From the NCBI RefSeq assembly GCF_014174255.1, contig NZ_JABEQJ010000002.1:124001-188000 (forward strand): a stretch of 64,000 nucleotides of DNA, in the 5' to 3' direction. Below the pieces are notes generated by a model. That model was not told where the DNA came from. It ran no database searches and saw only the letters and a list, made by a program, of their open reading frames with translations. Both the position numbers and the translations under genes were made by a program. Below, piece after piece: positions 50,915 to 53,646 of the stretch. This stretch comes from Gluconacetobacter sacchari (GTDB lineage: Bacteria; Pseudomonadota; Alphaproteobacteria; Acetobacterales; Acetobacteraceae). Each line of letters opens with the position of its first letter. Within the stretch, counting starts at the first letter, position 1.

Positions 50915-52114
50915 ATGACGGCTGATCGACGGTCTCGCGTTCCGCGCGCTCTCGCGGCAGCCTGTATCCTGACGGCGATCGCGGCGCAGGGGCCGGCGCG
51001 GGCCGCCGAGCCGATCCTCCAGACCGAGGAAAGCGACATCGTGACCCTGCCGCCCGGCGGCCCGCACCGGGTGCTGGTCGAGGATGGCGTGTATCGCCAC
51101 AGCAAGGACGGACGGGTCTATGTCGTGGACCTCGATACCGGGCGGCTGCTGGGCATGGTGCAGGCGGCCTATAACGCCAACGTGGTGGCCGATCCGGCGG
51201 GCAAGGCGTTCTATGTCGCCGAGACGACGTGGGAACGCGGCAATCGCGGCAAGCGTCACGACATGCTGGCGGCCTATGATCCGCGCACGCTGGAACCGAC
51301 GGCGGATATCGACCTGCCGGGCCGGGCGCTGATCACGCCCAAGAAGCCCGACATGGCGATCAGCGCCGATGGCCATTACGTCTATGTCTATGATTCCAGC
51401 CCGACCAATGCGGTCCATGTCTATGATACAGGCCTGAAATCGGTGGTGCGGACGGTGGACGTGCCGGGCTGCGGGCTGATCTATCCATGGGGGAATGCCG
51501 GGTTTTCGTCGATCTGCGGCGACGGGTCGCTGGCGAACGTACGGATGGATGCCAAGGGCGTGCCGGCGCTGACGCGGACCCCGCCGTTTTTCGTGCCCGA
51601 CCGCGACCCGGTCTTCGAGCATAGTCCGGACGTCGCGGCCAACGGCCATGTCTGGTTCATTTCCTATAGCGGCCTGGTCTATGAAGCGACGCTGGGATCG
51701 CAATCCAGCATCGCCAAGCCCTGGTCGATCCAGGAAGCGGCCGGCCTGAAGGCGGCGTCGGACGCCCGCGCCCCGTTCGAGGTGGCGTGGCGGCCGGGCG
51801 GATGGCAGCTCGCGGCGTTGCGGGCGCGGGATTCGCACCTGTTCGTACTGATGCACAAGGGCACCTTCTGGACGCACAAGGATGCCGGGTCGGAATTGTG
51901 GGAACTGGACCTGAAGACGCATCGGCTGGTGCGGCGCATCGCTCTGGCGGCCCGCAGCATGATGGTCGGCGTGACCCAGGACGCGCAGTCGCGCCTGATG
52001 CTGACGGATGATGCCGGCGACCTGATGGTGCTGGACGGGGCCGACGGCAAGCCGTTGCGCAAGATCGCGGCGCTGGGCGATGCGCTGATCTTTACGGCGG
52101 CCCCGGGAGAATGA
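50915..52114 (+). CDS. TTQ-type amine dehydrogenase, large (alpha) subunit
   Basis: Structural subunit of a periplasmic quinoprotein that oxidises primary amines to aldehydes. 399 residues: a Sec signal peptide (RALAAACILTAIAAQGPARA, cleavage near residue 30) and a predicted seven-bladed beta-propeller. Blocks typical of methylamine and aromatic amine dehydrogenase heavy chains are VYVVDLDTGRLLGMV, FYVAETTWERGNRGKR, DVPGCGLIYPWG, ICGDGSLANV and WRPGGWQ; the wording is closer to the aromatic amine (AauB) branch from memory, not from a search. The small-subunit gene follows after 35 bases, then two cytochrome genes. Substrate unknown. Confidence 0.9.
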   Translation: MTADRRSRVPRALAAACILTAIAAQGPARAAEPILQTEESDIVTLPPGGPHRVLVEDGVYRHSKDGRVYVVDLDTGRLLGMVQAAYNANVVADPAGKAFYVAETTWERGNRGKRHDMLAAYDPRTLEPTADIDLPGRALITPKKPDMAISADGHYVYVYDSSPTNAVHVYDTGLKSVVRTVDVPGCGLIYPWGNAGFSSICGDGSLANVRMDAKGVPALTRTPPFFVPDRDPVFEHSPDVAANGHVWFISYSGLVYEATLGSQSSIAKPWSIQEAAGLKAASDARAPFEVAWRPGGWQLAALRARDSHLFVLMHKGTFWTHKDAGSELWELDLKTHRLVRRIALAARSMMVGVTQDAQSRLMLTDDAGDLMVLDGADGKPLRKIAALGDALIFTAAPGE

Positions 52115-52149
52115 GCCGCCGAATGATCCCGGCGTGACGGAGAAACGAT

Positions 52150-52728
52150 ATGCCCGATCCTGAAAACCGGGAGGCCGTCGGCGTGTCGCGGAACGGCCTC
52201 GACAGCATGGCCGAACGGCTTGCCCGCTATCTTGCCGGCCGGTCCTCCCGCCGCGGCGCGCTGGCGCGGCTGGGCGGGTGGGCGGCGGCGATCCCGGCCT
52301 TTCCGCTGCTGCCGGTCTGGCGGCGTGACGCGCGGGCGGCGACGGAGGCCGGCGCCGCGCCGTCGCCGTTCGCGGCCAAGGCGCAGGCCAGGGACGACAC
52401 GAAGTGCGACTATTGGCGTTATTGCGCCATTGACGGCAATCTCTGCACCACCTGCGGCGGCGGCGTTCATAGCTGCCCGCCCGGGACGCATCCGTCGCCG
52501 ACCTCGTGGATCGGCACCTGTTTCAACCCGCAGGATCGTCGCGCGTACCTGATCGCCTATCGCGACTGCTGCGGGCAGGATGCGTGCAACGAGCAGAACT
52601 GCCTGGGTACCGACGGCGACCTGCCGACCTATCGTCCGCAGGCCAACAACGACATCATCTGGTGTTTCGGGACCGGGTCGCTGCTTTATAATTGTTCGAC
52701 CGCCGTGATTGTAGGAACCGCCGAATGA
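52150..52728 (+). CDS. TTQ-type amine dehydrogenase, small (beta) subunit
   Basis: Catalytic subunit (192 residues) carrying the tryptophan tryptophylquinone made from two of its own tryptophans. These are expected to be Trp120 (SPTSWIGTCF) and Trp171 (NDIIWCFG); Asp139 in YRDCCG, needed for TTQ formation, is present. The mature part has twelve cysteines (86, 92, 99, 102, 109, 124, 140, 141, 146, 151, 172, 182), enough for the six disulfides of known enzymes. A twin-arginine-like leader (RSSRRGALARLGGWAAA, residues 31-47) indicates export. The stop overlaps the next gene's ATG (ATGA). No mauD or mauE for disulfide formation is adjacent. Confidence 0.93.
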   Translation: MPDPENREAVGVSRNGLDSMAERLARYLAGRSSRRGALARLGGWAAAIPAFPLLPVWRRDARAATEAGAAPSPFAAKAQARDDTKCDYWRYCAIDGNLCTTCGGGVHSCPPGTHPSPTSWIGTCFNPQDRRAYLIAYRDCCGQDACNEQNCLGTDGDLPTYRPQANNDIIWCFGTGSLLYNCSTAVIVGTAE

Positions 52729-53180
52729 AGAAGATCCTTACCCTGGCCCTGTCTCTGGGTGCCGCCACCCCCGCCCTCGCCGCGCCGGATGGCCAGGCGC
52801 TCTATGGCGCGAATTGCGGTATCTGCCACCAGGGCGGTGGAGTCGGCGCGCCGGGCCAGTTTCCGCCGCTGGCGAATCGGATCGACAAGATCATCTCGAC
52901 GCCCGACGGCAAGAAATATGTGACCGAGGTGCTGATGAACGGCCTGAGCGGTTCGATCGACGTTGCCGGGGCGACCTATGTCGGGTTCATGCCCAGCTTC
53001 AAGTCCCTGTCCGACGACGACGTGGCGGCGATTCTGTCCTATCTGTCGTCGTTGGGCGGCACCAAGCCGGCGCCGGTCGTGACGCCCGCGGACGTTGCGG
53101 CCGCGCGCGCGGCGCCGATGGCATCCTCGGCCGTCGCGGCCGCCCGGAAGGCGCTGAATGCGGCGCATCCGCTCCCCTGA
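52725..53180 (+). CDS. Small c-type cytochrome, amine dehydrogenase cluster
   Basis: Monoheme periplasmic cytochrome c, 151 residues. Signal peptide MKKILTLALSLGAATPALA with cleavage near residue 19. The heme site is CGICH (residues about 30-34) and a likely axial methionine is in VGFMPSF. The C-terminal 35 residues are an Ala/Pro/Val-rich tail beyond the cytochrome fold (PADVAAARAAPMASSAV). Coupled to the small-subunit gene by a four-base overlap, so it is a good candidate for the electron acceptor, in place of the copper protein amicyanin or azurin used by known enzymes. Confidence 0.88.
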   Translation: MKKILTLALSLGAATPALAAPDGQALYGANCGICHQGGGVGAPGQFPPLANRIDKIISTPDGKKYVTEVLMNGLSGSIDVAGATYVGFMPSFKSLSDDDVAAILSYLSSLGGTKPAPVVTPADVAAARAAPMASSAVAAARKALNAAHPLP

Positions 53181-53646
53181 GACTCGCGGACGCTTCGTCC
53201 GTCTGCCATGGCCGGTCCTGGCGATTGTCGCCGTGGCCGGCCTGATGATGCCTGGGCGGGGGGCCTGGGCGCTGGATCAGGTCCGTTCCACCTATCTGGA
53301 AAAATGCGGCGGCTGCCACGGGATCGAGGGACGGTCGGGGCAGACCTATATCCCGACCCTGCGCGACCGGGTCGGCACGCTGAGCTGCACGCCGGAGGGG
53401 CGGACCTATCTGCTGACGGTGCCCGGCGTGTCGATGTCGCTGATCCGCGATGACGCGCTGATGGCGCGCGTGATGAATTTCGTACTGTTCGACCTGGGGG
53501 GAGAGAGCACGCCGACGGGAACCCGCCCCTTTACCGCCGCGGAAATCCACGCCCAGCGGGGCCACGCCCTCAGCACCACGGACCTGCCGGCGCTGCGCGG
53601 GCAGGTGTGGGCGCGGGCGATCGCCTGCGCGGCGGGCCGTCGGTAG
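53158..53646 (+). CDS. Second small c-type cytochrome, amine dehydrogenase cluster
   Basis: Monoheme cytochrome c-like protein, 162 residues. A signal peptide lies at residues about 17-38 (LPWPVLAIVAVAGLMM..GAWA), and the heme motif CGGCH at about 50-54 sits in YLEKCGGCHGIEGRSG. Methionines in VSMSLIRDDALMARVMNF could ligate the iron. Sequence between and after is unlike common cytochrome c classes. It overlaps the preceding cytochrome gene by 23 bases in another frame, so they are surely cotranscribed. It converges on a minus-strand gene 15 bases on. Role unknown: electron relay or part of TTQ maturation. Confidence 0.82.
   Translation: MRRIRSPETRGRFVRLPWPVLAIVAVAGLMMPGRGAWALDQVRSTYLEKCGGCHGIEGRSGQTYIPTLRDRVGTLSCTPEGRTYLLTVPGVSMSLIRDDALMARVMNFVLFDLGGESTPTGTRPFTAAEIHAQRGHALSTTDLPALRGQVWARAIACAAGRR

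Follow-up and report, generated by a model that had tools for sequence, protein, structure and literature searches.

The described systems closest to the gene cluster treated here are the aau clusters, such as that of Alcaligenes faecalis, and the mau operon of Paracoccus denitrificans, both of which encode tryptophan tryptophylquinone (TTQ) amine dehydrogenases. The A. faecalis cluster, reportedly described by Chistoserdov in 2001, is said to be without mauFGLMN and to have a small cytochrome as its orf-2. To our knowledge, the aau class as a whole lacks mauG. Active aromatic amine dehydrogenase (AADH) was reportedly produced in Paracoccus from aauBEDA and orf-2 by Hothi in 2005; because MauG may have been present in the Paracoccus host, that expression experiment is undecisive. 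No route of TTQ completion appears to have been described for organisms that lack MauG. For MauG itself, two papers describe a remote haem oxidation of mono-hydroxylated tryptophan (PMC7876137, PMC6405878). A four-gene cluster of this kind is present in Gluconacetobacter sacchari, within a stretch of 64,000 nucleotides (assembly GCF_014174255.1, contig NZ_JABEQJ010000002.1, positions 124,001 to 188,000) that is called the window below. Its last gene, c2, encodes a small monohaem cytochrome that, from its distribution and predicted structure, is the best candidate for a MauG substitute.

The four genes of the cluster are as follows.

50915..52114, + strand: B, TTQ amine dehydrogenase large (heavy) subunit, 399 amino acids (PF06433, E 1e-49)
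52150..52728, + strand: A, TTQ small (light) subunit, 192 amino acids, with a twin-arginine-like leader and twelve Cys (PF02975, E 5.9e-51)
52725..53180, + strand: c1, monohaem cytochrome of the Thermus c552 type with the motif CGICH, probable electron acceptor (PF00034, 1.8e-11; model compared with 1dt1)
53158..53646, + strand: c2, monohaem cytochrome without the Met-bearing hairpin, 162 amino acids, conserved companion of MauG-less TTQ clusters

The gap between B and A is 35 nucleotides, and the overlaps are 4 nucleotides between A and c1 and 23 between c1 and c2. The four-gene cluster is real: Pfam matches and coordinates agree with the preliminary description, made from the sequence alone, of a large subunit, a TTQ small subunit and two monohaem cytochromes in overlapping or closely spaced genes. 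That description singled out the absence of mauG and a copper-protein gene. Given the reported lack of mauFGLMN in the A. faecalis cluster, this is less surprising than was held, and absence of mauG from aau clusters is not new.

Distribution of c2 and MauG

Clusters were counted as distinct when they differ in the last 115 residues of A, which gives 132 clusters. Among the 148 loci, no A above threshold is found in L183, where A is cut by a contig end, or in L211, which has partial matches, and L096 was not entered. MauG without c2 is present in 17 distinct clusters, c2 without MauG in 111, both in none, and neither in four. One of these four (L150) lies at a contig end, and its c2 is found there by tblastn. 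The other three (L175, L176 and L191) are orphan B-A pairs, and each of their genomes holds a complete c2 cluster elsewhere.

The c2 profile, built from 86 rows, scores at least 110 bits in 43 of 43 aau-type genomes searched, and the next lower match is 51 bits. Two aau plasmids also carry c2, at 102-106 bits. In a phylum sample of 398 genomes, with no more than ten candidates scored in each, c2 is found (E 1e-15) in 11 genomes, which are exactly those with a full-length A. Two further genomes match A and were set aside from an initial 13. In G561 (L096), the open reading frame (ORF) of A has 119 amino acids and stops before the TTQ tryptophans; in G122, it has in-frame stops. No c2 is found in either of these two genomes with a broken or truncated A. 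The 14 Methylophilaceae mauA genomes all have MauG, MauF and MauN matches beside A and none has c2 (best match 20.2 bits). Five mau plasmid records, searched as plasmids only and not with their chromosomes, also contain no c2.

Neither c2 nor a hit to the amicyanin profile is found in 13 of the 17 mauG clusters. The presence of c2 therefore tracks the absence of MauG, not the absence of amicyanin. The companion gene c1 is on the same strand in 45 of the 111 c2 clusters, and 13 of the others have c1 elsewhere in the fetched stretch.

The c2 of a second cluster in genome G247 (L057:8972-9610) has no haem motif in its open frame, unlike the near-identical L058, and this is a frameshift or an assembly error.

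Structure of c1 and c2

In Pfam, c1 matches only cytochrome c families and c2 has no match at E 0.001. Each contains one CXXCH motif. Neither protein matches PF03150 (CCP_MauG) or has two haem sites. The positions that distinguish them are listed here.

52989..52991, + strand: Met89 codon of c1, probable haem ligand (Met invariant in 60 of 60 c1 sequences; codon checked)
53305..53319, + strand: CGGCH haem-binding motif of c2 (C50, G52, C53 and H54 invariant in the c2 alignment; codons checked)
53407..53466, + strand: Tyr84 to Ala103 of c2, site of the missing c1 hairpin (length comparison and profile alignment)

The features of a class I, c552-type cytochrome are present in c1, which has the CXXCH motif and keeps the distal Met in a modelled hairpin. 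Its model has a predicted local distance difference test (pLDDT) score of 93 and, against 1dt1, a template modelling (TM) score by target length of 0.88 and a root mean square deviation (rmsd) of 1.7. In c2, the hairpin of about 17 residues that bears the haem Met in c1 is missing from 114 of 114 sequences, and c2 therefore lacks the class I c552 Met hairpin. The stretch concerned is 18 or 19 residues long in every c2, compared with 35 to 37 in all 60 c1 sequences, and the profile alignment places a 16-column gap on the hairpin just ahead of the Met. The c2 model is confident (pLDDT 90), lacks strands and finds no PDB match below E 0.001; its likeness to 1dt1 is loose (TM 0.65, rmsd 5.2). The Met slot of c2 is mostly occupied by Ala or Ser, and 38 of the 114 sequences have neither Met nor His anywhere in the stretch. 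A conserved distal ligand is missing in c2, and an open haem is likely in many of its members.

Role of c2

The presence pattern points to one small gene as the candidate for TTQ completion. In this reading, c2 would be a monohaem TTQ maturase that replaces MauG and derives from a c552-type carrier by loss of the Met hairpin. Beside c1, it would perhaps form a split MauG haem pair, with c2 as the open peroxidatic haem and c1 as the low-spin haem. We regard this as possible and hold it with reserve.

Several observations, on c2 itself and on the CCP_MauG family, weigh against it. Unlike MauG, a monohaem protein has no second haem for storing oxidising equivalents. The TTQ of the window enzyme is itself predicted. 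A FastTree phylogeny of B and A covers 125 of the 132 clusters, those with a B of at least 330 amino acids. In it, all 17 mauG clusters form one clade (100), so the mutual exclusion of c2 and MauG represents one evolutionary switch and not many. As c2 is defined by adjacency to A and its profile rows come partly from the searched genomes, finding it in the positives is to some extent circular. In 66 of the 111 c2 clusters, there is no c1 on the same strand. In 53 of them, c2 is the only one of the two cytochromes in the stretch, and c2 itself could be the acceptor in clusters without c1. In 47 of the 114 c2 sequences, among them the window's (Met), the neighbour of the Met slot is Met or His, so some c2 proteins may still be six-coordinate electron carriers.

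The last two of these points, and the position of c2 after A, favour a different role, in which c2 is a dedicated electron acceptor in place of amicyanin or azurin and TTQ is formed by an unidentified enzyme or by self-processing. Against this role, every c2 has lost the usual ligand hairpin, and a third of the sequences (the 38 above) have no Met or His in that stretch. The 13 mauG clusters that match neither amicyanin nor c2 also indicate that an acceptor gene need not sit in the cluster. The acceptor role is a real possibility, if some way from probable.

The genome contains four PF03150 matches, none of them close to an A gene. A quick tree that includes 19 MauGs of mau clusters places none of these four cytochrome c peroxidase (CCP)-like proteins inside a MauG group. 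Three are in a clade of acetic acid bacteria (100). The fourth (L007) shares a long branch with two other proteins, and the sister group of this branch, at 82, consists of Paracoccus MauG and the proteins of L121 and L122; the program issued a long-branch warning, and the tree alone does not settle this placement. The L121 and L122 proteins are CCPs of two other aau genomes (G501 and G679, both c2-type), and they lie inside the Paracoccus MauG group. Both placements count against a maturase role for c2. The MauG proteins of Methylobacterium, Indioceanicola and the Methylophilaceae are placed apart from the Paracoccus group, on long branches, and MauG may have two origins.

A CCP_MauG-family protein of this genome could, on this evidence, mature TTQ from a distance: four such genes are present, L007 is on its weak sister branch, and MauG itself appears in two places in the tree. 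This is unlikely. None of the four is within a MauG group, three belong to the well-supported acetic acid bacteria clade, and the family is missing from many genomes that carry A. Among 28 A-bearing genomes, five have no PF03150 match (one is 89% complete and four are listed as 100% complete, two of these being single contigs). In a second set of 46 genomes, for which completeness is not stated, 15 have no match (11 isolates and 4 metagenome assemblies). When the sets are pooled, without double counting of six genomes common to both and without one mauG genome, 20 of 67 distinct aau genomes have no PF03150 match, though many are drafts. In G556, one of the five PF03150-free genomes of the first set, the MauG model does give a match of 20.8 bits, which is a further point against replacement by c2. 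The MauG model TIGR03791 was rejected as a genome test, because even the MauG on the Paracoccus denitrificans plasmid reaches no more than 94.6 bits, far below the cut-off of 443.85.

If these enzymes carry TTQ, MauG is probably not a general requirement for them. With no clear MauG orthologue in the genome and the family missing from much of the class, another protein must act.

MauE and MauD

The preliminary description stated that the operon contains no mauE, mauD, mauG or copper-protein gene. For the first three, no match is found nearby; for copper proteins, the statement holds for amicyanin only. All PF07291 (MauE) and PF03150 matches of the genome are on contigs other than the window's. 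MauD and amicyanin, each searched with its own profile, have no match in window positions 40001-62000, a search that did not extend to azurin-type copper proteins or to copper proteins in the rest of the genome. None of the genome's three TTQ clusters, that of the window included, has a match to MauG, MauF or MauN.

The genome contains three A genes, in the window, on contig C13 and on contig C3. There are two PF07291 matches, one beside the A gene of C13 and one beside that of C3. The C13 cluster has the order B-D-A-c2-E-D, and the C3 cluster has the order B-E-D-A followed by two cytochromes. The MauE and MauD helpers are displaced, not absent. It had been proposed that helper genes lie elsewhere or that other proteins do the work, and the genome search suggested with that proposal gives a divided answer. 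The first alternative applies to mauE and mauD, both of which are found beside other TTQ light-chain genes, an outcome that the preliminary description had listed among those that would refute it. The second applies to MauG, for which the search returned the four PF03150 genes and no clear orthologue.

Among the family-survey matches listed, 7 of 7 genomes of the genus have a window-type cluster without E-D and a C13-type cluster with one E and two Ds. Eleven distinct clusters contain neither E nor D: six of the window type, the second cluster of L130, L175, L176, L191 and L201. L142, where E-D is beyond the 4.5 kb limit, and L146, which starts at a contig end, were dropped from this count. 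For 10 of the 11, the genome holds an E-D pair in a different cluster; the L128 genome fell outside this check.

In the B+A tree, the six distinct clusters of the window type lie within a group (99) of B-E-D-A-c1-c2 clusters from other acetic acid bacteria, and Ameyamaea adjoins them at 86. This nesting among complete operons suggests that E-D was probably lost from a formerly complete operon. In a quick MauD tree, the second D of the C13 cluster groups at 100 with the Ds of complete clusters of the window type, and the first D is in another clade (99) with stray Ds. The E-D pair at the tail of the C13 cluster is thus the nearest match to the missing pair. The MauE tree agrees more weakly (91) and leaves the point open. 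As a complication, L065 and L188 carry E-D ahead of a C13-type B-D-A-c2 order, so the pair may have joined the C13-type cluster before the genus arose.

Two features, the loss of E and D from the operon and the presence of two further A genes, would fit a window enzyme that is a decaying, unmatured paralogue. We consider this very unlikely. The cluster is bounded upstream by spoVR (PF04293) and downstream by an opposite-strand ORF, as first described, followed by guaB. The order spoVR-cluster-guaB recurs in every one of the 11 Gluconacetobacter loci tested (8 of them distinct), and a survey of relatives, as had been recommended, finds B, A, c1 and c2 together in all 8 distinct loci. The TTQ residues are retained, and the genes overlap as in a working operon.

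Other features of these clusters were observed. Six acetic acid bacteria with one TTQ cluster (L072, L073, L075, L076, L077 and L078) keep a second mauD, which belongs to the other clade and stands apart, at 1.4-3 kb from A. The C3 cluster (L011:7743-11617) is divergent; its light chain carries His instead of D95, and the Asn-Asn-Asp-Ile-Ile that precedes the second Trp in the window's A is replaced by Ala-Ser-Glu-Ser-Ser. By eye, TonB-dependent-receptor-like genes adjoin the C13 and C3 clusters (L010:12980-15643 and L011:11755-14289), and none was noticed beside the window cluster. On a Thermomicrobium roseum plasmid (L211), four partial light-chain-like matches (22-46 bits) are near MauE-like and MauD-like matches.

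Subunits A and B

The small subunit contains the residues expected for TTQ, at these codons.

52507..52509, + strand: Trp120 codon of A, first TTQ tryptophan
52564..52566, + strand: Asp139 codon of A, which we take to be the active-site Asp
52660..52662, + strand: Trp171 codon of A, second TTQ tryptophan

All three residues are invariant in a 15-row alignment and aligned to the PDB light chain 3c75_L, and their codons were checked. The two tryptophans are 51 residues apart. With D95 and twelve Cys also present, the alignments and the Cys count confirm the two tryptophans, Asp139 and twelve cysteines that had been noted at the outset. Ten of the twelve Cys are in the same column as in 3c75_L, and C102 and C146 are shifted by one and three positions.

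On TIGR02659, A scores 199.1 bits, barely over the 196.85 cut-off. On TIGR02658, B scores 178.7 bits, far under the 454.45 cut-off. TIGR02659 would label A as 'methylamine dehydrogenase (amicyanin) small subunit', although there is no amicyanin match and B fails TIGR02658. Compared with PDB light chains, A is slightly nearer methylamine dehydrogenase (MADH; about 136 bits for the mature chain) than AADH (122 bits). The heavy chains of MADH and AADH in the PDB are about equally similar to B, and the substrate may be methylamine or an aromatic amine.

Proposed maturation and electron transfer

The route that we favour, as a tentative proposal which falls short of probable, combines MauE and MauD supplied in trans from C13, c1 as acceptor, and c2 in the place of MauG to finish TTQ. 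A would be exported by its twin-arginine-like leader. It would then be oxidised in trans by the MauE and MauD of the C13 cluster, whose gene content and MauD tree are given above. On the preformed small subunit, c2 would complete TTQ with O2 or H2O2, at a haem face probably opened by deletion of the distal Met hairpin; the presence pattern and the deletion are consistent with this step. The B2A2 enzyme would oxidise primary amines, and the TTQ electrons would pass to c1, a His/Met-type cytochrome, rather than to a copper protein.

If c2 is a maturase, a cytochrome fold became a protein-modifying oxidase through the loss of one loop, and far fewer genes could suffice to make TTQ enzymes in another host. 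From the arrangement of the genome, a single MauE-MauD pair may serve two TTQ clusters, in which case operon-based annotation misses helpers. No paper naming c2 or a MauG substitute was found in the open-access literature, which is weak evidence of novelty as subscription journals are mostly outside it.

Comparison with known systems

The window enzyme is probably an aau-class TTQ amine dehydrogenase, periplasmic and made of two subunits, with cytochromes of its own. The aau-type layout (B-E-D-A, then cytochrome genes, no mauG) is all in place except for the displaced E-D. Like the aauBEDA-orf2 cluster reported for Alcaligenes faecalis, the window cluster has homologous B and A, no mauF, mauG, mauM or mauN, and small c-type cytochromes after A. 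The aau cluster on a plasmid of Pseudomonas aeruginosa RW109 is alike in B and A and in the absence of the same four mau genes, and it also has c1 and c2. In contrast to the aau clusters, the E-D of the window is in another cluster and not between B and A.

The mau operon of Paracoccus denitrificans shares homologous B and A, with the TTQ residues common to both systems. It differs in having F, E, D, amicyanin, J, MauG and M/N-like genes and no c2, and the window B is far under the TIGR02658 cut-off. Between c2 and MauG, only the proposed role, haem-based completion of TTQ, is shared; c2 is monohaem, has 162 amino acids and has no Pfam match. The nearest solved relative of both window cytochromes is Thermus thermophilus cytochrome c552 (1c52, 1dt1), for c2 by profile and fold and for c1 by fold. 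Compared with this protein, the Met hairpin is kept in c1 and lost in c2.

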